A DNA stretch of 21,546 bases from a virus: positions 1 through 21,546 of IMG/VR virus record IMGVR_UViG_3300017951_000167; one strand, given 5' to 3'. This document shows, in pieces, positions 966 to 21,546 of this stretch; within the stretch, counting starts at the first letter, position 1; each line of letters begins with the position of its first letter. A model generated the notes under the pieces. That model had not been told where the DNA came from. It ran no database searches and was given only the letters and a program-made list of their open reading frames with translations. Made by a program: the position numbers and the translations under genes.

Positions 966-1050
966 GGTTGGCTGCCTTTCTTTCATACTTTTATAGCATA
1001 TCGAAAAAAGAATTAAAATAATTAGCCTCACCCCCTTGAACTATTGAATT

Positions 1051-1067
1051 GTTAACACTAAGTTAAC
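1051..1067 (+). promoter_or_regulatory. 17-bp near-palindrome matching the CtrA box (site A)
   Basis: The sequence is GTTAACACTAAGTTAAC. It contains TTAA, seven bases, then TTAAC, exactly the consensus described for CtrA in Caulobacter. It lies 27 bases before the ATG of the rightward gene at 1094 and upstream of the leftward gene starting at 965, inside a divergent promoter region. The same 17 bases recur with one change at 14856. It may instead be the operator of the ribbon-helix-helix protein encoded at 1390. Confidence 0.65.
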
Positions 1068-1093
1068 AGGACAAACAGTGAAGGAGACACGAC

Positions 1094-1321
1094 ATGGAAA
1101 ATATTAGCGCAGACAGCTTAAGCCTTTTCATCGAACTTGCATCAGATGCTGAAAACTGGAATGGCCAGCCATTGCTGAACATCACTAAAGAGCAACGCGG
1201 AAACCTTAGCGACTTAAAGAAAAAGGGTCTAATGGTCACGTTTCGTGATGAAGGTTGCGAATGGGTAGATTTCACAGATCAAGGCATCGCCTTCGCCGCA
1301 GAACACGGCATCGAAATATAA
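1094..1321 (+). CDS. Small protein, winged-helix-like
   Basis: The protein has 75 residues from ATG 1094, with a good AAGGAG ribosome-binding site ten bases upstream. Its C-terminal half reads LSDLKKKGLMVTFRDEGCEW followed by VDFTDQG. This resembles the recognition helix, wing and 'LTdxG' end of winged helix-turn-helix proteins, but it is too short for a confident family call. It is the first rightward gene after site A, and the second 17-bp site follows its stop codon, so it is placed as an early gene that could regulate transcription. The function is not known. Confidence 0.7.
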   Translation: MENISADSLSLFIELASDAENWNGQPLLNITKEQRGNLSDLKKKGLMVTFRDEGCEWVDFTDQGIAFAAEHGIEI

Positions 1322-1340: not shown

Positions 1341-1370
1341 CCCCGTAGTTAGTTCAGTGCTAACACGGGG
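1341..1370 (+). promoter_or_regulatory. Second 17-bp site (site B) inside a larger hairpin
   Basis: Positions 1348-1364 read GTTAGTTCAGTGCTAAC. On the minus strand this is GTTAGCACTGAACTAAC, which matches site A at 13 of 17 positions. It is flanked by CCCCGT (1341-1346) and ACGGGG (1365-1370), so the whole block can fold as an 11-bp stem with one bulged A. No T-tract follows. It lies just before the ribbon-helix-helix gene, a natural position for an autoregulatory operator; the hairpin could also act on RNA. Confidence 0.5.
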
Positions 1371-1389: not shown

Positions 1390-1566
1390 ATGATAACAGC
1401 ACTGAAACAATCGCAATACGAAGACGTGAGGCAGATCGGGCCACGCATCAAAGTTAGCATCGCCGACAGCTTGGCCGATTACAGCAAGCGCACGCGTATG
1501 CCGCAGGCTCTGATCGTCGAGGAGGCGCTCCGCGAGCTGCTCAAGGACGCGGGCTATGACGTCTAA
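1390..1566 (+). CDS. Ribbon-helix-helix DNA-binding regulator
   Basis: The protein has 58 residues. I chose ATG 1390 because GGAGG lies five bases upstream; an in-frame ATG at 1378 is possible but worse placed. Residues about 23-56 show the Arc/CopG pattern: a short strand RIKVSI, a first helix DSLADYSKRT, a turn at Met-Pro, and a second helix QALIVEEALRELLKD. Proteins of this fold dimerise and use the paired strands to read palindromic DNA, usually as repressors. Site B lies directly upstream and related sites occur at three other promoters, so this protein is a candidate to bind them. It overlaps the resolvase gene by 11 bases, so the two are probably co-translated. Confidence 0.8.
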   Translation: MITALKQSQYEDVRQIGPRIKVSIADSLADYSKRTRMPQALIVEEALRELLKDAGYDV

Positions 1567-7643: not shown

Positions 7644-9053
7644 ATGACCAACGATAACCCGTTTTTGAAGCTGATGTCGCGCTACCGCGATGACCCAGTT
7701 GCCTTTGCCCGCGAGGTCATCGGCATCGAGCCTGACGAGTGGCAGATTGAGCTGCTGGACGCTGTCGCCGCGCCTGCGGTACGGCGTGTTTCTGTTCGAT
7801 CTGGCCACGGCGTCGGCAAGTCCACGGCGGTCGCGATGGCTGCGATTTGGCACGTGCTGATGCGCATCCCGAGCAAGACCGTTGTGACGGCGCCTACGTC
7901 ATCGCAGTTGTTTGACGCGTGTTTCGCGGAGATGAAGAACGTGGCCAAGCGGCTCAAGCCCCCGTTTAACAATTTGCTCGAGATCAAGAGTGACCGCATT
8001 GAGCTGAAGAGCCAGCCCGAGGCCACGTTTATTTCGTGCAGGACGTCGCGTGCGGAGCAGCCAGAGGCGCTTGCTGGCGTTCACAGCGAGAACGTGCTCC
8101 TGATTGCCGACGAGGCGTCTGGCGTGCCCAACGCGGTGTTCGAGGCTGCGTCTGGCTCGATGTCTGGCCACAATGCGACGACGATCCTGACGGGCAACCC
8201 CACGCGGAACACGGGTTTCTTTTACGACACGCACTCGCGGCTGAAGGATGACTGGTACACGATGCATGTGAGCTGCGTTGATAGCCCGCGCGTTGCGGAG
8301 GATTTCGTTGATGACATGAAGAAGCGTTACGGCGAGGACAGCCCTGCGTTTCATGTGCGTGTACTTGGCAACTTTCCCCCGAGCGAGGAGGACACGGTTA
8401 TTCCCGTGGCTCTGATTGACGCGGCGATGAATAACGATATTCGGATACACGAGGACACGACGGCGATTTGGGGTTTGGACGTTGCGCGTCAGGGCGGCGA
8501 TGCGAGCGTTCTGTGTAAGCGTCAGGGGCCTGTCGTGCATCCGTTGACTGTGTGGCGCAATCTCGACTTGATGCAGCTCACTGGAGCTGTGAAGGCGGAG
8601 TATGACGCGTTGCCGCCGTCCAAGCGGCCAGCGGAGATCATTGTTGACAGCAATGGCTTTGGCGCGGGTGTTCTGGATCGCTTGCGCGAGCTTGGCTTGC
8701 CAGCGCGTGGACTGAATGTCTCGGAGCGCGCGTTGTCGAAGGACACGTATTTGAATTTGCGCGCTGAGTTGTGGTTTAAGTGCAAGGCGTGGCTGGAGGG
8801 GCAGGACGTTAAGCTGCCGCGCGATGATTTGTTGTGGGCGGAGCTTGCGGCCCCGCGTTATCACTTTACGAGCGCTGGCAAGCTGCAGGTGGAGAGCAAG
8901 GACGCGATGAAGAAGCGTGGCGTTCCCTCGCCTGACCGCGCCGATGCTGTTTGCTTGGCACTGGCCAATGATCACACGACGATGGCGTTTGGAACGAGTT
9001 CGAGCGGCTCGTGGAGCCGCCCGTTGAAACGTAATATACGTGGGGTTGTTTAG
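7644..9053 (+). CDS. Terminase large subunit
   Basis: The protein has 469 residues from ATG 7644, with GGAG seven bases upstream; the frame is open back to 7506 but the added residues look non-coding. The ATPase part has Walker A SGHGVGKST (53-61), Walker B VLLIADEAS (151-159) and the coupling motif TGNP (183-186). The nuclease part has GLDVAR with Asp279, IIVDSNGFG with Asp335 and SPDRADAV with Asp431 and Asp434, the acidic triad of the RNase-H-like domain. It drives ATP-dependent DNA packaging through the portal and cuts the concatemer. All key residues are present. The gene ends four bases into the convergent leftward operon. Confidence 0.95.
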   Translation: MTNDNPFLKLMSRYRDDPVAFAREVIGIEPDEWQIELLDAVAAPAVRRVSVRSGHGVGKSTAVAMAAIWHVLMRIPSKTVVTAPTSSQLFDACFAEMKNVAKRLKPPFNNLLEIKSDRIELKSQPEATFISCRTSRAEQPEALAGVHSENVLLIADEASGVPNAVFEAASGSMSGHNATTILTGNPTRNTGFFYDTHSRLKDDWYTMHVSCVDSPRVAEDFVDDMKKRYGEDSPAFHVRVLGNFPPSEEDTVIPVALIDAAMNNDIRIHEDTTAIWGLDVARQGGDASVLCKRQGPVVHPLTVWRNLDLMQLTGAVKAEYDALPPSKRPAEIIVDSNGFGAGVLDRLRELGLPARGLNVSERALSKDTYLNLRAELWFKCKAWLEGQDVKLPRDDLLWAELAAPRYHFTSAGKLQVESKDAMKKRGVPSPDRADAVCLALANDHTTMAFGTSSSGSWSRPLKRNIRGVV

Positions 9054-9493
9054 GAGCGGTCGCGCGGTCCTCGGACTGCGTATCGCTTTTTGACTTGCTG
9101 GACGGCTTGGTGCGTCATACCCAGCTCTTTTGCGATGGCGCGGTTTGTGAAGCCTTCCTGTATCATCTCGATGGCGATTTGAATGTGCTTGCGTGCGCCT
9201 ATGCGTGACGAGATTGTGCCCACCGTGCCTTGATTGATCCCGAGGTGCTCGGCGATTTGCTTTTGCGTGTATCCTTCTTTCGTCATGCGTATGATTGCTG
9301 CGTGGCGTTCGGCTTTTACCTGCTTACCCTCGACTGACTTTTTCTTGTGATCCTCGGGGTGCGTGATTTGGCTGCCCCATTTTTTGCGGTAAACTTGTGT
9401 CTCTTGTTGCGCGACGGCTTTCATCAGCGCCCCGACTTCGTCTTGTGTTGGCGTGCGCCCGTTTTCTTCGACGAATTTTGTTATTGCGTTCAT
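9050..9493 (-). CDS. Protein with two tandem helix-turn-helix motifs
   Basis: The protein has 147 residues. Two similar HTH units follow each other. The first is at about 84-108 (YTQKQIAEHLGINQGTVGTI), the second at about 114-138 (FTNRAIAKELGMTHQAVQQV). Each has the AI/QIA helix, a glycine turn and a recognition helix, as in sigma-70 region 4 or resolvase-type HTH domains. The first 60 residues are helical and charged, without a recognised domain. Tandem HTHs suggest binding of a long or repeated DNA site, perhaps as a transcription regulator. It is the last gene of the leftward operon, coupled to the previous one by an ATGA overlap, and its stop overlaps the terminase stop by four bases. Confidence 0.8.
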   Translation of the reverse strand: MNAITKFVEENGRTPTQDEVGALMKAVAQQETQVYRKKWGSQITHPEDHKKKSVEGKQVKAERHAAIIRMTKEGYTQKQIAEHLGINQGTVGTISSRIGARKHIQIAIEMIQEGFTNRAIAKELGMTHQAVQQVKKRYAVRGPRDRS

Positions 9494-9684
9494 ATGTGAT
9501 ATCCTTCCTCTCTGCGATTATTTACGAACTTCTTTAGATCGTCTTTGGCGTACCAGTAGCGATTACCTGCGGACGGTGACGCGTCTTTTTTTGTCCACGC
9601 CTCCATCCAGAAGTCGACCTGTTGTTTTAGAAACCTGTACTCCGCCTCTAGCGCGGGCGGTAGACCTTTTTTTGCGCTCGACAA
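9490..9684 (-). CDS. Small protein starting at TTG, overlapping a zinc-ribbon gene
   Basis: The protein has 64 residues. The frame is open further upstream, but those residues look like a shadow of the zinc-ribbon gene. I place the start at TTG 9684 because AAAGGAGG lies five bases before it. The sequence is well formed: PALEAEYRFLKQQVDFWMEA followed by WTKKD and NRYWYAKDDLKKFVNNRR, helical and rich in aromatics. The family is not recognised. It shares about 122 bases with the zinc-ribbon gene in another frame. A run of seven A at its start could allow a +1 frameshift that fuses the two. The stop overlaps the tandem-HTH start (ATGA). Confidence 0.6.
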   Translation of the reverse strand: MSSAKKGLPPALEAEYRFLKQQVDFWMEAWTKKDASPSAGNRYWYAKDDLKKFVNNRREEGYHI

Positions 9685-9799
9685 TGTTGCCTCCTTTGTT
9701 GATGAATTTGTCGATCCAGCACGGCGCGCAGTGGTGGACGTAATTGTCCACCGTGACCGAAGTTGCGCCGCACTCACAGCATACATTATTTGTTTTCAA
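9563..9799 (-). CDS. Small zinc-ribbon protein
   Basis: The protein has 78 residues from a TTG start at 9799; no ATG is available in this frame. Cys7-x2-Cys10 and Cys24-x2-Cys27 make a complete four-cysteine zinc ribbon in the first 30 residues, followed by WIDKFINKGG. From about residue 44 the sequence becomes Arg/Gly-rich and irregular. This is where the next gene reads well in another frame, so the real product may end or shift near 9680. It may bind nucleic acid or a host protein. It is part of the coupled leftward operon, and the previous gene ends 14 bases after this start. Confidence 0.55.
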   Translation of the reverse strand: MKTNNVCCECGATSVTVDNYVHHCAPCWIDKFINKGGNIVERKKRSTARARGGVQVSKTTGRLLDGGVDKKRRVTVRR

Positions 9800-9947
9800 C
9801 TTTCACTTTCCTCTTCATTGCTTTTGCCGCTCTTCTGGCGTTTCTGTTTACTGGCTTTGGCATCTCGTCATGCGCGACGCGTACCTTCTTTGTCGTATTG
9901 CGCGACCTGCTCGAGGAGATCGGGCCGTGGAACTTTGCTCTGCTCAT
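9786..9947 (-). CDS. Tiny basic protein
   Basis: The protein has 53 residues from ATG 9947, which overlaps the stop of the upstream gene as ATGA. It is strongly basic: the C-terminal half is almost all Arg, Lys and Ala (RNARRAAKAMKRKVKVENK). No motif is recognised; a nucleic-acid-binding or RNA-polymerase-directed peptide is possible. The precise stop/start coupling and the overlap with the next gene (14 bases) support a real gene, although it is short. Confidence 0.55.
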   Translation of the reverse strand: MSRAKFHGPISSSRSRNTTKKVRVAHDEMPKPVNRNARRAAKAMKRKVKVENK

Positions 9948-10591
9948 TTATCTTTCCCCACGAGCTTGCGGATTTCCGCGTGTATGTCGTTGATCTCCTT
10001 GAGCTGGAGCTGCAACTGCGTGACAGCGAGGCTGATGTCTGACGCGCGTTTCTCGGCGTCCTCGAGCCATGTGCGCGCCTCTCCCAGCGCTTTGGCTTCA
10101 GCCTCGTTTTCGTCGCTGTCGCCGTACATGTCGACGCGGATTTCTTTGACCCAGCCCCACATGACGCCGTTGCCCAGCTCCTCGGCGACCGTCTTGTCGC
10201 TATTTAAGCCTTTGTAGTGGCCCTTTTCGATGTCGTACACTGTGTCGAGCATGCCGATGATCTCGCGCTTTTGTTCGCGCGTTGGCTTTCGGATTTCCTC
10301 TACGTTCGTGTTGCACTTCTTCACTTCTACTGCGCTTGACTTCATTTTATTGATTTCCTTCTCTACGCATTTATCGCATTTGCACGCGTGCTTTGTGACG
10401 CGCCAGCCTTGTTTTTTGAGCTGCTGTTGCAGCGACGCTAAGTTGCTGATCTTTAGCCCGCGTACGGTGCCTGACACGCCGCGCGTGCGTTCTGTTGAAA
10501 GGCGAGCACTAAGCTCGACCGTTTCTTTGCAGTGGTCGCATGACGCCTCCACATATTTCTTTCGAGAGTTTTCGCGTATCTCAAACCCCAT
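9944..10591 (-). CDS. Zinc-binding phage protein of unknown function
   Basis: The protein has 215 residues. The N-terminus has CDHCKE at about 18-23, and CKCDKC at about 70-75 supplies a second cysteine pair, together a likely zinc site. Residues about 100-155 form a compact segment (REQKREIIGMLDTVYDIEKG, then YKGLNSDKTVAEELG and WGWVKEIR) that looks like a DNA-binding domain of the kind used to scan for a cognate site. The C-terminal 50 residues are a coiled coil. From memory, proteins of this layout occur in marine phages without known role. The start overlaps the preceding gene by 11 bases and the end overlaps the next by four. Confidence 0.75.
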   Translation of the reverse strand: MGFEIRENSRKKYVEASCDHCKETVELSARLSTERTRGVSGTVRGLKISNLASLQQQLKKQGWRVTKHACKCDKCVEKEINKMKSSAVEVKKCNTNVEEIRKPTREQKREIIGMLDTVYDIEKGHYKGLNSDKTVAEELGNGVMWGWVKEIRVDMYGDSDENEAEAKALGEARTWLEDAEKRASDISLAVTQLQLQLKEINDIHAEIRKLVGKDK

Positions 10592-10829
10592 CTGTCACCT
10601 CCTTTAGCTTTTTCTCGACCTCCGCCAGCTCGGTTTTGTAGCGCTCGACGAGCATCATGTAGTGGGCGATGTCCGCCGACACGGAGCCGTTGCGCACGCC
10701 TGTGTTCTGCGTCTGGATTGTGTTGATGCGACGTTCGTTGCGCTCGATCAGGCTATTGAGCTGACCGACTTGGAATTGTAGCGACACCTCGTCGATGGCG
10801 TCGTTTAGTGTTGGTTCGTTGGTTTTCAT
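10581..10829 (-). CDS. Small coiled-coil protein
   Basis: The protein has 82 residues, starting at ATG 10829 in an ATGA overlap with the zinc-finger gene. Nearly the whole length is helical with heptad hydrophobics (QLNSLIERNERRINTIQTQN and MMLVERYKTELAEVEKKLKE), indicating a dimeric or trimeric coiled coil. No family is recognised. It could be a partner of the 215-residue protein that follows, whose C-terminus is also coiled coil; that is inference. Confidence 0.7.
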   Translation of the reverse strand: MKTNEPTLNDAIDEVSLQFQVGQLNSLIERNERRINTIQTQNTGVRNGSVSADIAHYMMLVERYKTELAEVEKKLKEVTDGV

Positions 10830-11077
10830 TTTGTGTTTTCTCCCTCTGCAACTGCTTCAGCATACGTGATTGCGCATTTGTCTGAGCAGAAATAGTCATG
10901 CTTATGCTTGTAACTTTCGCCATCCCAAAGCGATGCTCTGTAATTACCATTCCAGCTATCTGACCAAACAACCTGCATATTTCCGTTATAAGGCTCATTG
11001 TTAGAATAATTCGTTATGTCTTTTCTGGGGCTTTTGCCGCAGTATTCACACGGTCTTTTATACTTCCATATTTTCAA
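10826..11077 (-). CDS. Small zinc-finger (TRASH-like) protein
   Basis: The protein has 83 residues. I place the start at TTG 11077, which overlaps an upstream stop as TTGA and has GAGGAG eight bases before it; a GTG at 11113 would add 12 residues. Cys10-x2-Cys13 near the N-terminus and FCSDKCA near the C-terminus give a CxxC...CxxxC set, as in TRASH/MYM-type treble-clef fingers. The middle is rich in Trp, Tyr and Asn. It likely binds zinc, and the partner is unknown. The stop is coupled to the coiled-coil gene by ATGA. Confidence 0.7.
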   Translation of the reverse strand: MKIWKYKRPCEYCGKSPRKDITNYSNNEPYNGNMQVVWSDSWNGNYRASLWDGESYKHKHDYFCSDKCAITYAEAVAEGENTK

Positions 11078-11169
11078 AACGGGCACTCCTCTTCTGGTGT
11101 TTCGGGTCGCCACACAACATCACAGTTGTGCAGCGCTTTGATGAAGTCGACTAGGTTACGAGGCCACAC
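11074..11169 (-). CDS. Possible 31-residue peptide
   Basis: A short frame from GTG 11169 (or TTG 11178) ends at a TGA that overlaps the TTG start of the zinc-finger gene. The translation, with NLVDFIKALHNCDVVWRPET and a final ECPF, looks protein-like: amphipathic helix, Trp and an acidic end. No clear ribosome-binding site precedes it. The stop/start coupling, which matches the rest of this operon, is the main support. It may instead be the tail of the upstream gene reached by a frameshift. Confidence 0.35.
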   Translation of the reverse strand: MWPRNLVDFIKALHNCDVVWRPETPEEECPF

Positions 11170-11563
11170 GGTCGGCAAGCTCGTCGACGCGGTTCATGTA
11201 CACGGCCAGAGCGACGCTAAGGTCTTTGATGGGCGCGCGCTCTGCGCATTCGCGGATCGTCTGCCACGCGTGCGCTTTTTGTGGCGCTTGCACCATGTGC
11301 GCGCCGCCATCGGCATCGCGCTCAATCTTCCAGCGCTGGGGCTGGTCGATGTTAAAAACGGTCGGATCGACGTTCTCGACTGTGTTGCCGACTACTGCGT
11401 TTGCGATGCCGTGCTGAGCGCCGACCGCGTTAGTGTTGAGGAAGTTGATCAGCTCCTGCTTGGACGTTGGCACCTCGTGCTCGATCCAGTCTTTGCCCCA
11501 CGCCTTGCGGGCGTCCGCTTGTGTGCCAGCCCATCCGCCTTTTCTGTTAGTGTATAGTTTCAT
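11156..11563 (-). CDS. Hypothetical leftward-operon protein
   Basis: The protein has 135 residues from ATG 11563, with GGGAGG ten bases upstream; a TTG at 11626 would give 156 residues. The N-terminus (MKLYTNRKGGWAGTQADAR) is followed by a mixed domain with KDWIEHEVPTSKQELINFLN. The C-terminal half holds HAWQTIRECAERAPI and a final helix. No motif of a known family is visible. A stem-loop with a TTCG loop lies just upstream of the start and may affect translation or mRNA stability. It is the second gene of the leftward operon. Confidence 0.7.
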   Translation of the reverse strand: MKLYTNRKGGWAGTQADARKAWGKDWIEHEVPTSKQELINFLNTNAVGAQHGIANAVVGNTVENVDPTVFNIDQPQRWKIERDADGGAHMVQAPQKAHAWQTIRECAERAPIKDLSVALAVYMNRVDELADRVAS

Positions 11564-11592
11564 GTTATATGCGCCTCCCAGCGCGCTGTTGT

Positions 11593-11608
11593 GGGCGCCG
11601 AAGCGCCC
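11593..11608 (-). promoter_or_regulatory. UUCG stem-loop before the 135-residue gene
   Basis: On the minus strand GGGCGC and GCGCCC form a perfect six-pair stem closed by a TTCG tetraloop of the very stable cUUCGg type. It lies between the stop of the 51-residue gene and the likely start at 11563. No T-tract follows, so it is more likely an mRNA-stabilising or translation-modulating hairpin than a terminator. Confidence 0.45.
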
Positions 11609-11615
11609 GTTGAGA

Positions 11616-11771
11616 TTAACCTGCAAAATTTACGGAGCGAACTTCATAACCTCGTTCGCGCATAATTTTAGCTGCTTGTGTGCGATTGAATGCGCTGACG
11701 TATTCGTATGTCACAACATATTTCCCGTCTTGGTTCGTGAATGCGATTTCTACATCATAAGAGCGTGTCAT
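11616..11771 (-). CDS. 51-residue protein, first gene of the leftward operon
   Basis: A 51-residue frame starts at ATG 11771 with a perfect GGAGG ribosome-binding site eight bases upstream. The sequence MTRSYDVEIAFTNQDGKYVV then TYEYVSAFNRTQAAKIMRER and YEVRSVNF suggests a small beta-alpha-beta fold with two strands, a helix and a last strand. No family is recognised. It is the promoter-proximal gene of the leftward module, and the 17-bp site C lies 36 bases upstream of its start, so it would be among the first products made. Confidence 0.7.
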   Translation of the reverse strand: MTRSYDVEIAFTNQDGKYVVTYEYVSAFNRTQAAKIMRERGYEVRSVNFAG

Positions 11772-11806
11772 TTGTTAATCCTCCGTTACTCATATGAAGT
11801 ATATAT

Positions 11807-11823
11807 GTTAACTACGCGCTAAC
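11807..11823 (-). promoter_or_regulatory. 17-bp CtrA-like site before the leftward operon (site C)
   Basis: The plus strand reads GTTAACTACGCGCTAAC, and the minus strand GTTAGCGCGTAGTTAAC matches site A at 13 of 17 positions. It holds TTAA, seven bases, then CTAAC on the plus strand, one base from the CtrA consensus. It sits between the leftward gene starting at 11771 and the rightward genes starting at 12008. Confidence 0.5.
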
Positions 11824-11871
11824 ATCAACCCCTGTTTGCGAAATAATTCATTTTCTGGTAATTTTTTTACA

Positions 11872-11959
11872 TGCGGCGTTCCTTCCCGCTCTGGCCGCAA
11901 GAGCTTAAACACCAGCTCCCCCGCGTGCGATTACTCCCAGCGCACGCGGGGTTTATTTT
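11872..11959 (+). ncRNA. Candidate small RNA or leader ending at a terminator
   Basis: Three stem-loops follow each other in the non-coding gap. They are TGCGGC/GCCGCA (11872-11877 with 11894-11899), GAGCT/AGCTC (11901-11905 with 11914-11918) and the 11-bp terminator stem. A possible promoter precedes them: TTGCGA at 11835-11840, a 17-base spacer, then TAATTT at 11858-11863. The transcript would be about 90-100 bases. No rightward gene lies immediately upstream to need this terminator. It could be a free small RNA, an attenuated leader for the gene at 12008, or a block to read-through from the terminase genes. Confidence 0.35.
11919..11959 (+). terminator. Strong rightward Rho-independent terminator
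   Basis: CCCCGCGTGCG (11919-11929) and CGCACGCGGGG (11941-11951) form a perfect 11-bp stem with an 11-base loop, followed directly by TTTATTTT. There is no T-tract on the other strand, so it acts rightward only. It is the strongest terminator in the window. Confidence 0.85.
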
Positions 11960-12007
11960 GCACGTAAATGCTGTATTATAGCCAATAACACGCACAAGGA
12001 GAGCGAT

Positions 12008-12181
12008 ATGCCGAAAAAGGGCTTGTACGCTAATATTCACGCTAAACGTGAGCGCATTAAGGCGGGTAGCGGTGAAAAGATGCGCAAGGCTGGAAGTAAA
12101 GGCGCGCCGACTGCCAAGGCGTTTAAAGCGGCGGCTAAAACCGCTAAGAAGAAAAAAACGAAGAAGAAGGCGAAGAAGTAA
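12008..12181 (+). CDS. Small Lys-rich phage protein
   Basis: The protein has 57 residues from ATG 12008, with AAGGAG nine bases upstream. It begins MPKKGLYANIHAKRERIKAG, continues GEKMRKAGSKGAP, and ends in an almost pure Lys/Ala tail. From memory, the NIHAKR and GEKMRKxGSKGAP segments recur in many marine podoviruses and myoviruses, usually near the portal or capsid genes, with unknown function. The charge suggests DNA or RNA contact, for example as an internal virion protein. The stop overlaps the next start by one base (TAATG). Confidence 0.75.
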   Translation: MPKKGLYANIHAKRERIKAGSGEKMRKAGSKGAPTAKAFKAAAKTAKKKKTKKKAKK

Positions 12182-12916: not shown

Positions 12917-14673
12917 TGGTAGACCTAACGCGCTACATACCGCCTAACTTGCGTGGCCCCTTGCGTGAAGCTCGTGGGCTTGGCTACTCAATACTTGACA
13001 ACGTGATCGGGCTAGATGACGACTTCGAAAGCGGTGGGGAGCGCTTAGGTCGCGCAATTAGAGAAAACCCCGTAGGCACAGCTAAGGCGGTTGGCGGCAG
13101 TATACTGGAAGGTGTTGGAGACGCCGTTACAGACCCTGTGGGGACCGTAAAGGACATGGGCGCGAGTATTGCTCAGTCATACGAGAGAGGCTCTCAGGGA
13201 GCCGCTGCGTACTTGCCAGAAGGTGTCGCTCTGAAGGATGCGACATACGCACAAATACGAGAAGCTAATGATGCCTACTTGGCAGACTTAACAAACTTGG
13301 CGTCTGTCGTTCCAGCCGTCAAAGGCGTTGGCTCAGTGGTTCGCGCAGCGGATGACGCTGTTGGTGCAGATACTATTGGACTTTTGCGTGCTGTCTCTCA
13401 AGGCGACCTCGAGGGTATCGGGGAAGTGTTCCAACGCGGTGGAGAGGGCGGGAGCATTGGCGCTGCAAAAGTTGGGTCGGATTACTTCAATCCGCCGAAC
13501 CCGAACGCGGGCAGATCGAAGGATGATGCACTCTTTTCTGAGTTTTCGCTGAAGACAAAACACAAAACAGCGCCTTACAATTGGAAAACAGGCGCAAACG
13601 ACCTCGGAGTGCTCTCACCAACATTGTTAATCAGGCCAGAGGATGATCTCGGTAAAACATATTACTTTGCTGCGGGTGATCGCACCGCAGGCGGGGTCGA
13701 GATAACTAGCATCGGGGACATGAAGCTACGCCGCCCAGTTAAGATGGAAGCAGGGCCAGAGTTCATGAACACTGGAGATGTTTGGGCTTCGCATAGAGGC
13801 GTTATGACCCCAAAGCATAAAGTCTTAAAAAACGCTCAAAATTACCAAGACATCAAATTGGCGTATCAGCCTATGAGTGAGCGTGCGGGTGATTTCGCGA
13901 AGCATCAGGCAGAGCTTTTTGCTGAAGCTCTATATTCATCCAAGATGCCGATCGAAACTGTGTCTCGCATTGACGAAGAACTGCGTAAAATTATCGGTCT
14001 TCAGAAGAAAACTCAACTTACACGGATAAATAAGGCACGAGTTCAAGCTGGTATGCCTCCTATAGATTTACCTGATCAGGGGGTTGTCCCAAGCGTTGTG
14101 TCGCCTGCGTTCAGGGACTGGTTCAGCTCGCAAGCTGCCGAAGCAGTACGGAAGCCGTTTATTCAGCGCTTAGATAAGGCTGACATGAAAAAACTAGAAG
14201 GGCTTGTTGACGTTGGTGAAGTGCGCTTCGCGGCGACAAATCCTGATCTAGTAAATGCGCCTAGCTTCAGTTCAGGGTATCGATTTGGCACGCCTGATAT
14301 TGCGAGAGGGCTTTTGCCATCTGACCACCCATCGTATGACACAAAGTACGCAGCTCGCGAAGGCACTGGAGCTGAGACATACGGAGTAAGCGTCCCAGCG
14401 TCTATCATGGCGCGCGATACAGTACTACCGAGGCTCGCAGAGAGCGCACGGGCTGGAGGCTTCACATTTGGGCAAAATTCCCTAGATTTTAGGGATTACT
14501 TATTGCCTAGCGAGCAGCGCGTATTCACCATGAACCCTAAAACTAGCCAACTTGTCGATAATCAACTTGTTGATGAGGCATCGACGTACATAGACACATA
14601 TAACAGGCTCGGCCCCGACTTTGCGAGAATGTATAATCGCGGCCTAATTGAAGCGTTCATACGAGGGAATTAG
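12916..14673 (+). CDS. 585-residue protein of unknown function, possible virion-delivered protein
   Basis: The N-terminal ~120 residues are helical and Gly/Ala-rich (GTAKAVGGSILEGVGDAVTD, VGTVKDMGASIAQSYERGSQ), like segments that associate with membranes or assemble in virions. A middle region (about 215-330) has a compact mixed domain (LSPTLLIRPEDDLGKTYYFA, TAGGVEITSIGDM). The C-terminal part (about 440-580) holds ATNPDLVNAPSFSSGYRFG and a further helical end. No catalytic motif stands out. The layout and place before the portal recall polyvalent or ejected virion proteins, but that is inference. Codon choice is more A/T-ending than in neighbours, which suggests a separate origin. The last 17 bases overlap the convergent gene ending at 14657. 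Confidence 0.65.
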   Translation: MVDLTRYIPPNLRGPLREARGLGYSILDNVIGLDDDFESGGERLGRAIRENPVGTAKAVGGSILEGVGDAVTDPVGTVKDMGASIAQSYERGSQGAAAYLPEGVALKDATYAQIREANDAYLADLTNLASVVPAVKGVGSVVRAADDAVGADTIGLLRAVSQGDLEGIGEVFQRGGEGGSIGAAKVGSDYFNPPNPNAGRSKDDALFSEFSLKTKHKTAPYNWKTGANDLGVLSPTLLIRPEDDLGKTYYFAAGDRTAGGVEITSIGDMKLRRPVKMEAGPEFMNTGDVWASHRGVMTPKHKVLKNAQNYQDIKLAYQPMSERAGDFAKHQAELFAEALYSSKMPIETVSRIDEELRKIIGLQKKTQLTRINKARVQAGMPPIDLPDQGVVPSVVSPAFRDWFSSQAAEAVRKPFIQRLDKADMKKLEGLVDVGEVRFAATNPDLVNAPSFSSGYRFGTPDIARGLLPSDHPSYDTKYAAREGTGAETYGVSVPASIMARDTVLPRLAESARAGGFTFGQNSLDFRDYLLPSEQRVFTMNPKTSQLVDNQLVDEASTYIDTYNRLGPDFARMYNRGLIEAFIRGN

Positions 14674-14827
14674 AATTGCGTTCTTGTTCAATAATATCTT
14701 CAATAAGCTCGACAATATTACTGGGTAAATCGCCCTCTTTGTCCCACAGCATGAATGCAAGTGAGTATATACCAGCTCGAAGTGGATCAGTTAAATCCAT
14801 TTCGTCGTATGTATTTTTGCCAGACAT
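14657..14827 (-). CDS. 56-residue acidic protein, convergent with the 585-residue gene
   Basis: A frame of 56 residues starts at ATG 14827 with TAGGAGG ten bases upstream, and ends at TGA 14657-14659, inside the end of the opposite gene. The sequence MSGKNTYDEMDLTDPLRAGI then YSLAFMLWDKEGDLPSNIVE and LIEDIIEQERN is acidic and mostly helical, well formed for a real protein. No family is recognised. It is divergent from the portal gene, with the 17-bp site D in between, so both may answer to the same regulator. Confidence 0.65.
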   Translation of the reverse strand: MSGKNTYDEMDLTDPLRAGIYSLAFMLWDKEGDLPSNIVELIEDIIEQERNSNSLV

Positions 14828-14855
14828 AATGCTATCCTCCTATAACAAACACAGT

Positions 14856-14872
14856 GTTAACACTAAGTTAAG
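14856..14872 (+). promoter_or_regulatory. 17-bp CtrA-like site before the portal gene (site D)
   Basis: GTTAACACTAAGTTAAG is identical to site A in 16 of 17 bases although they lie 13.8 kb apart. It contains TTAA, seven bases, TTAAG. It lies 24 bases before the portal ATG and 29 bases from the start of the divergent 56-residue gene. Confidence 0.6.
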
Positions 14873-14895
14873 CGCCGCACAAGAGGGCCTCTAAT

Positions 14896-19605: not shown

Positions 19606-20207
19606 GCATTACGACATACGACGAGCTTAAATCATCAATCGCGGACTTCTTAGATCGAGACGACCTTACGTCAGTGATCCCGACGTTCATATCTCTTGCG
19701 GAGGCGCGAATTGCGCGCGACTTGCGTCACTGGAAGCAGGAAAAGCGCGTGACTGCAGATATGGATGAGCGCTACGAGAACCTGCCAAACGATTGGGTGG
19801 AAATTCAGCAAGTCCAGATTACAGACGGCGGGCGCATCTCGTTTATTTCAGCATCTGACATGGCCGAGCGCCGCGCCCTAAACGATACCAGCGGGAAGCC
19901 AAGATACATGCGTCTGACTGCGGATCAGCTTGAGCTATATCCAACGCCAGATGCGACGTATGAAGTAACAATGCAATATTATGGCAGAATACCAGCGCTG
20001 AGCGCCTTAGAGCCTGATAACTGGCTGCTAAGAGACGCTCCAGATGTATTCTTGTACGGGGCGCTAATGCACTCAGCGCCCTACTTGGCGGAGGACGCCC
20101 GTACGACTATCTGGGCGAACCTGTACCAAAGCGGCATACAAGCTCTGAACTTAGAAAGTGAAAAGGCTCACGCGGCTGGGCCACTACGCATGAGGATACC
20201 AACGTAA
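19602..20207 (+). CDS. Head-tail adaptor protein
   Basis: The protein has 201 residues with a GTG start coupled to the previous gene by a four-base overlap. The N-terminus (TTYDELKSSIADFLDRDDLT, then IPTFISLAEARIARDLRHW) is the typical start of podovirus adaptor proteins. A beta-rich centre (LPNDWVEIQQVQI, PRYMRLTADQLELYPTPDA) and a helical end (DVFLYGALMHSAPYLAEDAR) follow. These proteins form the ring that joins the portal to the tail. The stop overlaps the tail-fibre start by one base (TAATG). Confidence 0.82.
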   Translation: MSITTYDELKSSIADFLDRDDLTSVIPTFISLAEARIARDLRHWKQEKRVTADMDERYENLPNDWVEIQQVQITDGGRISFISASDMAERRALNDTSGKPRYMRLTADQLELYPTPDATYEVTMQYYGRIPALSALEPDNWLLRDAPDVFLYGALMHSAPYLAEDARTTIWANLYQSGIQALNLESEKAHAAGPLRMRIPT

Positions 20208-21546
20208 TGGCAACGACAACTTGGACGCAAACCGCTGGCATGGTATCCGAAGAGGATACAGACAACGTAGAAAGTTTTGCGGAGCAGGCGGAGGCTTCTA
20301 AGGACGCCGCTGCGGCCTCTGAGACTGCGGCTGCGTCTTCTGCAGCTTCTGCGGCTTCGAGCGCCACGTCGGCAGGAACAGACGCGGCGACAGCGACAAC
20401 GGGCGCGGCGACAGCGACAACAAAAGCTGCAGAAGCATCAACGAGTGCGTCTAATGCCGCGACCAGCGCGTCTAACGCGTCTACGTCTGAGGCAAATGCC
20501 TCATCATCCGCCGCCTCTGCGGCTTCGAGCGCTGCGGCTGCGGCGACATCAGAAACAAACGCAGCCACGAGCGCAACTTCTGCAGCGGCTTCTGCGGCTT
20601 CGGTCGGCACAGAGGCGGCAGACGCGGCTGCGAGCGCAACTGCGGCGGCTGCATCCGAGACAGCGGCGGCTGCATCTGAGGCAGCGGCGGCGGCTTCCGA
20701 GACGGCGGCCTCCACGTCCGAAACGAATGCGGCGGCGTCTGCGACGACGGCATCTACTGCGGCGACTAACGCCGCAACGTCTGAAACGAATGCCGCCACT
20801 AGCGAAACAAATGCTGCAACCTCAGAAACGAATGCGGCAACCAGCGAAACAAATGCCGCAACGAGTGCATCCTCTGCGTCTACTTCAGCATCTAACGCCG
20901 CAACGTCAGCATCGGCTGCGAGTGCGTCACAAGTTTCTGCGGCTGCATCGGCTGCATCTGCGGCGAACTCCTACGACTTATTCGATGACCGCTACCTCGG
21001 CACAAAGACATCTGATCCAACTGTGGACAACGATGGGAATGCTTTGGTCGCTGGCGCATTGTACTTCAACAGCACGGCAAACGAGATGCGTGTGTATGAC
21101 GGTGCGAACTGGATTGCGGCATCATCGGCTGGTGGTGCGTCACTGCTTGAGTACAAGTACACTGCGACATCTGGACAGACGACATTCTCTGGAGCAGACG
21201 ATAACGCAAACTCTTTGTCATACACTCAGGACAACTTGATCGTCACACTGAACGGCGTAGTGCTAGAGAACGGCACTGACTACACGGCGACAACTGGTAC
21301 ATCTGTCGTCTTGGCGTCTGGAGCGGCTACGAGCGACGAATTGAACGTGATTGCCTTTAAGACGTTTACTACCGCAGACATGGTTGCTGCGAGTACTGGC
21401 GGCACGTTCTATGGCGATGTTGCCATGGATGCTAACCTAACCTTCGGCGACAACGACAAAGCCATCTTCGGCGCAGGGTCCGACCTACAGATTTACCATA
21501 ACACGGTAGGGTTTACTGGCAACATTATAGCAAGCGCAACGAATAA
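20207..21546 (+). CDS. Tail fibre protein (partial, runs off the right edge)
   Basis: The frame is open from ATG 20207 to the window end, giving at least 446 residues. After a short N-terminus (about 1-30) come about 230 residues made almost only of Ala, Ser, Thr, Glu and Asn. They are arranged in heptads, including four exact AATSETN copies, and are expected to form a long trimeric coiled-coil shaft. Next are DRYLGTKTSDPTVDNDGNAL and VAGALYFNSTANEMRVYDG, then NLIVTLNGVVLENGTDY and DKAIFGAGSDLQIYHN. These are repeat modules known from podovirus and siphovirus fibres. Receptor binding would lie further downstream, outside the window. The ORF is large but truncated, so its product is incomplete here. 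Confidence 0.85.
   Translation, partial: MATTTWTQTAGMVSEEDTDNVESFAEQAEASKDAAAASETAAASSAASAASSATSAGTDAATATTGAATATTKAAEASTSASNAATSASNASTSEANASSSAASAASSAAAAATSETNAATSATSAAASAASVGTEAADAAASATAAAASETAAAASEAAAAASETAASTSETNAAASATTASTAATNAATSETNAATSETNAATSETNAATSETNAATSASSASTSASNAATSASAASASQVSAAASAASAANSYDLFDDRYLGTKTSDPTVDNDGNALVAGALYFNSTANEMRVYDGANWIAASSAGGASLLEYKYTATSGQTTFSGADDNANSLSYTQDNLIVTLNGVVLENGTDYTATTGTSVVLASGAATSDELNVIAFKTFTTADMVAASTGGTFYGDVAMDANLTFGDNDKAIFGAGSDLQIYHNTVGFTGNIIASATN
20771..20854 (+). repeat. Four tandem AATSETN heptads in the fibre shaft
   Basis: Four consecutive 21-base units each encode Ala-Ala-Thr-Ser-Glu-Thr-Asn. The protein repeat is exact but the DNA is not: Ser is TCT, AGC, TCA, AGC and Thr after Glu alternates ACG, ACA, ACG, ACA. 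The third position changes as if kept different. It is part of a longer Ala/Ser/Thr-rich shaft. Confidence 0.8.

Follow-up and report, generated by a model that had tools for sequence, protein, structure and literature searches.

Why should a phage place a block of small leftward genes between its terminase genes and its capsid genes, which run rightward? The question is raised by positions 9050-11771 of the viral record IMGVR_UViG_3300017951_000167, which was analysed in its entirety (21,546 bases; hereafter the window). The window begins with leftward genes of the lysis region, followed by a rightward early operon encoding a ribbon-helix-helix (RHH) protein, a RuvC-like resolvase and exonuclease-like, SSB-like and primase/helicase-like proteins. 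Next come the rightward small and large terminase genes, the leftward island and a rightward virion operon with portal, scaffold and capsid genes; several of these gene names were assigned by comparison with annotated relatives. A sequence-only reading had taken the island, whose ten genes are called here i1 to i10 from right to left, for a host-takeover or counter-defence island with a site of its own. Our analysis suggests, with a probability of about 0.68, that it is one slot (slot B) of an early accessory regulon, which would be defined by a common operator, controlled by a repressor and filled with exchangeable cassettes. This regulon of exchangeable slots, and not the island alone, is the unit of interest.

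Variable content between conserved flanks

The slot was compared in 80 viral contigs encoding a terminase 76-99% identical to that of the window. Its conserved left flank is the gene of the terminase large subunit (7644-9053, plus strand) and its conserved right flank is the first gene of the virion operon, encoding a lysine-rich protein of 57 amino acids (aa) (12008-12181, plus strand); in the relatives the right boundary is formed either by the gene of this protein or by the portal gene. The number of leftward genes between the two ranges from zero (L017, L018, L026, L035 and L062) to seven or more. In L003, the DNA of the terminase and the first virion genes is 90.7% identical to that of the window, and the portal gene 88%, whereas only 39% of the island can be aligned, and a methyltransferase-related gene lies at the terminase end of the slot. 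The cargo of the relatives also includes C5 cytosine methyltransferases (PF00145, 6e-56), a protein with a DPPF methyltransferase motif (weak match), HNH, GIY-YIG and NUMOD3 endonucleases, many orphan small proteins and, judged by motif only, possible cysteine peptidases and a ParB-like protein.

Gene-for-gene conservation with the terminase and portal genes, as in a morphogenesis module, was clearly not found; therefore a variable accessory island, with cargo that changes between flanks that stay, is supported, as the sequence-only reading had expected from a comparison of gene order. The outgroup phages phiM5, MW202879 and MW202711 have no reversed block, their terminase gene being followed by genes on the same strand, and because of this the slot is probably a derived feature.

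A palindrome shared by several operons

The island lies on the opposite strand to the flanking operons, and promoter-like hexamers surround a palindrome at its head. The leftward promoter predicted from the sequence (11800-11828, minus strand) consists of TTGATG (11828-11823) and TATATA (11805-11800) with a spacer of 17 bases, which is filled by the operator-like palindrome TGTTAGCGCGTAGTTAACA (11806-11824, minus strand). The same palindrome heads the leftward blocks of the relatives. The 17-bp site noted earlier, GTTAACTACGCGCTAAC at 11807-11823, is this palindrome inside the i1 promoter; its presence was confirmed, but it does not belong to the island alone, since two further operons or more have it as well.

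Within the window, a pattern scan found a second, perfect copy in the promoter of the early operon (slot C; 1050-1068, plus strand), and a third, imperfect one lies at 1347-1365 (plus strand), 25 bases upstream of the gene of the RHH protein. The pattern TGTTA-N9-TAACA thus occurs at 1050, at 11806 and, with one mismatch, at 1347, i.e. three times against 0.29 expected. In complete relatives the palindrome heads not only slots B and C but also slot A, an operon between the virion and lysis genes (79, 72 and 63 sites across the three slots, redundant counts). A whole-genome count of the pattern in 25 genomes gave 57 occurrences versus 10 for the reversed control. Of the 47 loci whose slot is closed and holds a leftward block, 45 have a palindrome scoring at least 11/14 near the head, while about 2% of random 210-base stretches score at least 12/14; the remaining two leftward blocks have a copy slightly further away. 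The matches listed in a scan of the whole viral collection included chance ones and were used only for contigs carrying landmark genes.

The consensus is TGTTAAC-N5-GTTAACA, with two GTTAAC boxes whose centres are 11 bases apart. Positions independent of the search pattern are also conserved among 87 nonredundant oriented copies (A 0.76, C 0.80, G 0.93, T 0.89). The spacer of the aligned copies contains TAT, and a TTG precedes them by about 14 bases, as would be expected of a promoter with a -10 region that overlaps the right box; start codons mostly follow 24-35 bases behind the palindrome. This layout suggests a repressor site.

A degenerate copy was found at 14855-14873 (minus strand). It lies 27 bases upstream of a short leftward gene (14657-14827, minus strand; 56 aa) that directly precedes the portal gene and is conserved in L066, L078, L034 and L011. 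This place constitutes a fourth slot (slot D).

A candidate regulator

The early operon encodes an Arc-like RHH protein of 58 aa (1390-1566, plus strand), which is our candidate for the repressor. It matches RHH_3 (8e-8; 32.5 bits against a cut-off of 21.6) and phrog_3180, an Arc-like repressor family. Its predicted fold has two helices after an N-terminal strand region, and RHH proteins were the best matches in a fold search of the predicted structure, each of them weak; a search of PDB sequences with the RHH profile gave no match. The gene is located about 25 bases behind a palindrome copy in the window and in the relatives. The protein is present in 22 of 25 genomes, the other three apparently being contigs that end before this region. 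The outgroups phiM5, MW202879 and MW202711 have neither a relative of the RHH family nor a strong palindrome copy.

The 71 distinct RHH sequences diverge in their helices, whereas their N-terminal strand, KQIGPRI, is almost unchanged. In the RHH fold this strand is the part that contacts DNA. By analogy with Arc and MetJ, a pair of symmetric boxes spaced by 11 bases would accommodate two RHH dimers bound side by side. Judging from co-occurrence, adjacency and the conserved strand, the RHH protein most likely binds the palindrome. Arc of phage P22 and other RHH repressors are likewise small RHH proteins, and the Arc operator has two boxes about 11 bases apart within the promoter; the difference is that the present protein appears to control accessory slots throughout the genome.

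The copy in front of the RHH gene lies within a longer inverted repeat, CCCCGT...ACGGGG (1342-1371). L006 has CCCGC...GCGGG at the same repeat, as if the pairing were kept.

Exchange of genes behind the palindrome

At several loci the palindrome is followed by genes that are unrelated to one another. The first gene is hypervariable (71 families in 139 distinct site-gene pairs), and 147 whole operons encode 291 distinct proteins of 105 families, 56 of which were seen once. The slots share a pool of genes: eleven families, including relatives of i3, i4, i5 and i10, occur in more than one of them.

In the window, two exchanges are resolved to the base, and their breaks lie exactly at start codons. 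The similarity to L003 sets in again at 11772, the base directly in front of the i1 start codon. In the early operon, L002 and L006 both cease to match the window at 1089 and match it again from 1325; therefore exactly one open reading frame (1094-1321, plus strand), which encodes a protein of 75 aa and is the first gene of the operon, was replaced as a unit between two copies of the palindrome. Such swaps would be explained most simply by recombination within conserved sequence (operator, leader and flanking DNA).

Genes of the island and their surroundings

Ten leftward genes can be read between 11771 and 9050 (all on the minus strand), their starts having been corrected with the use of Shine-Dalgarno sequences and of the relatives. 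The leftward block described by the sequence-only reading is confirmed: it is upheld by the base composition, as the AT skew flips from positive to about -0.4 across 9050-11771, by ribosome sites, and by homologs of eight of the ten genes. Those of i2, i3, i5, i6, i7, i9 and i10 lie at the same position in the relatives (roughly 40-100% identity), and that of i4 (80%) is located elsewhere, in L258, where it opens slot A. Because these homologs exist, the genes are more than chance reading frames; i1 and the tail of i8 found no homolog support in the relatives searched. The four TTG or GTG starts (i3, i4, i8 and i9) agree with the earlier description, as does the position of the block, which separates the terminase from the capsid genes and runs against them; i10 is convergent with the end of the terminase gene (9053) and overlaps it by 4 bases. 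Overlaps of 4-14 bases, claimed for nearly every pair, are found in seven of nine pairs, the exceptions being a gap of 52 bases between i1 and i2 and an overlap of 122 bases between i8 and i9.

The first gene behind the palindrome, i1 (11616-11771; 51 aa), has a GGAGG ribosome site and no homolog was found for it. For i2 (11156-11563; 135 aa) an ATG behind GGGAGGCG was chosen as the start and not the TTG at 11626; its homologs lie in early regions of other marine phages, and its structure model (pLDDT 61) was too poor for a fold search. The products of i3 (11074-11169; 31 aa, GTG start; N-terminus MWPRNLVDF in the relatives) and i5 (10581-10829; 82 aa) have homologs in slot A operons. Between these two lies i4 (10826-11077; 83 aa, TTG start), a possible zinc-binding protein, although its zinc motif is weak (zf-FCS, E 0.04). 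The largest product, i6 (9944-10591; 215 aa), has cysteine pairs near its N-terminus and matches phrog_21667 and phrog_12127, while i7 (9786-9947; 53 aa) is a basic protein with homologs in the relatives. Two of the kinds of motif noted earlier were recovered: i8 (9563-9799; 78 aa, TTG start) has a zinc-ribbon-like C-X2-C...C-X2-C arrangement, and the last gene, i10 (9050-9493; 147 aa), encodes two helix-turn-helix (HTH) motifs (HTH_23, 2e-14). The TTG start of i9 (9490-9684; 64 aa) lies behind AAAGGAGG, and homologs of i9 occur in the relatives.

The overlap of i8 and i9 (9563-9684) is read in different frames and spans an A7 run, and the C-terminal part of i8 that lies in it is unconserved. 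A frameshift fusion of the two genes at this run was considered and rejected, since in the relatives i9 retains a start of its own whereas i8 is replaced.

A strong hairpin resembling a rho-independent terminator (11919-11960, plus strand) separates the island promoter from the virion operon and points rightward; its 11-pair stem is followed by TTTATTTT (-23.9 kcal/mol, z -4.7). It may block transcripts which read through from the terminase genes and would be antisense to the island. Farther right, a long tail-fibre-like protein with many SETNAAT-type repeats is encoded at 20207-21544 (plus strand) and runs off the end of the record.

Possible functions and host

Most products of the island were said to have no known function, and indeed the libraries assign only DNA binding, to i10. 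Weak PADLOC matches of i10, i9 and i6 (E 2e-4 to 6e-3) were judged to be generic HTH or chance similarities. In other marine phages, homologs of i6 lead an operon of replication genes, and those of i2 and i9 occur together behind genes of a helicase and a VRR-NUC nuclease, beside a possible cysteine peptidase like those of slot B. Because these are replication regions of unrelated phages, i2, i6 and i9 count as early-type accessory genes. In an unrelated phage (L107, 4894-6871), relatives of i9 and i2 lie behind a helicase, beside an HTH-like and a possible cysteine peptidase gene, so that genes of the same kinds have come together there independently.

For some relatives, the methyltransferases of the slot suggest that the phage avoids restriction. 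The view that the island serves host takeover or counter-defence seems reasonable because early genes of archaeal viruses, which share one regulatory sequence, include real anti-defence genes (PMC11065993). It has to be borne in mind that in the relatives the slot also carries endonucleases of the homing type. We put the odds that at least several of the island genes act in host takeover or counter-defence at about even. The island is a variable accessory locus, as proposed from the sequence, but it is not self-contained, its site and gene pool being shared, and a counter-defence role is only plausible.

The nearest isolates, which are distant, infect Sinorhizobium and Pelagibacter. One contig, L330, binned as an Opitutae bacterium, carries the terminase (88%), portal and capsid of this phage; it is probably a misbinned virus and not a link to a host.

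Proposed mechanism and alternative explanations

Based on these observations, we suggest that a promoter with a built-in palindromic operator would drive the leftward operon, whose small genes are of the early type; the early operon and the accessory operon near the lysis genes would be driven by this operator as well. An Arc-type RHH repressor, made from the early operon, would most likely bind this operator. The accessory genes would be expressed at once upon infection and shut down as the repressor accumulates. Downstream of the operator and leader, which are conserved, and beside the terminase end, genes would be exchanged; they would also move between slots, and therefore each phage would have its own set.

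Several points weigh against this explanation. Searches of Pfam, PHROGs and PADLOC linked none of the island products of the window to a known family of defence or anti-defence proteins, and a search of 84,980 genomes for prophages and hosts with the portal and terminase gave only one close match, the contig binned as Opitutae, and no host. The relatives are overlapping contigs, so the counts are partly redundant (87-96 nonredundant sites); the program that called their genes was home-made, and in slot A a few of the first genes are probably artefacts. The link between slots through the HTH family rests on short motifs. The inverted repeat around the site at 1347 might act as an RNA hairpin or attenuator instead, and the palindrome resembles the box of the host cell-cycle regulator CtrA.

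If CtrA read the palindrome, the accessory operons would be coupled to the host cell cycle, a link already proposed for other alphaproteobacterial phages. The consensus does contain TTAA-N7-TTAA, the CtrA box described in promoters of phages of Alphaproteobacteria (PMC9437464), it is matched by 67 of 96 nonredundant sites, and the outgroup phiM5 infects Sinorhizobium. However, the site of the island reads TTAA-N7-CTAA and that of the RHH gene TTAG-N7-CTAA, and the 29 sites that miss the CtrA consensus keep the outer GTTA...TAAC. Unlike the reported clusters, the sites occur singly and extend over the promoter core, their consensus is stricter, a phage-encoded regulator goes in step with them, and phiM5 has no such site although its host has CtrA. 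We consider control by CtrA unlikely in general, although, because of the contained box, it may occur at some sites. Another alternative is an operon of the acr-aca type, in which the small genes would serve counter-defence and i10 would be an HTH autorepressor of the promoter. The architecture matches, i.e. small genes, an inverted repeat in the promoter and an HTH gene in the last position, and repression by this layout is established (PMC9410906, PMC9410881). Here, however, the repeat is common to several operons: the palindrome heads blocks devoid of i10 (L015, L028, L031 and L074) as well as the early operon. Therefore i10 is not its general reader and was rejected in this role, and no product resembles a known Acr in the three libraries named above. 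This reading of the island is distinctly unlikely.

It is also rather improbable that the slot serves mainly as an insertion site of homing endonucleases, the other genes being passengers with no selected function. Proteins of the HNH, GIY-YIG and NUMOD3-HNH types do occur in the slots of relatives, often beside the terminase end, but many blocks, including that of the window, contain no recognisable endonuclease. Moreover, the operator and leader are precisely kept while the genes change, and i9 and i10 are 64-100% identical in the relatives with intact frames. Homing endonucleases may promote movement, yet the exactness of the junctions between operator and gene cannot be due to them. Finally, the location between the terminase and capsid genes would suit late morphogenesis-related genes that merely run backwards. 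This explanation is largely refuted and very improbable, as the content varies while the morphogenesis genes stay, the block is absent from several relatives and from the outgroups, and homologs of the island genes lie in replication regions.

Known systems and significance

A close parallel to a repressor-controlled regulon of exchangeable slots comes from SIRV2 and other archaeal viruses, in which early anti-defence genes, among them tested anti-CRISPR members, share one regulatory sequence (PMC11065993). In both cases unrelated small genes, located in several places of the genome, follow a conserved promoter or regulatory sequence, with a small viral regulator as the likely repressor. The archaeal viruses differ in having archaeal promoters, a wHTH regulator (Aca8) and mostly single genes, whereas the present system, known from sequence, has bacterial-type promoters, operons and an RHH candidate. 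The hotspots of P2-like phages and P4-like satellites (PMC9122126) likewise combine fixed flanks with exchangeable cargo at a set place; their cargo comprises known defence systems, while here the cargo is uncharacterised and several slots are tied together by one operator.

We tentatively suggest, as a bolder and somewhat doubtful proposition, a plug-in architecture in this group of uncultured aquatic phages. One repressor-operator pair would mark several slots, whole open reading frames would be exchanged exactly behind the operator and between slots, and the operator would tag a pan-genome of early proteins for host takeover and counter-defence, comprising about a hundred families, most of them undescribed. 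The locus offers a concrete case of exchange, resolved to single genes, in which the control element is common to all. Provided that early accessory genes are what the operator marks, searching for a simple sequence would list candidate anti-host and anti-defence genes in uncultured phages independently of homology, and, if true, this would extend the logic known from archaeal viruses (PMC11065993) to the phages of bacteria.

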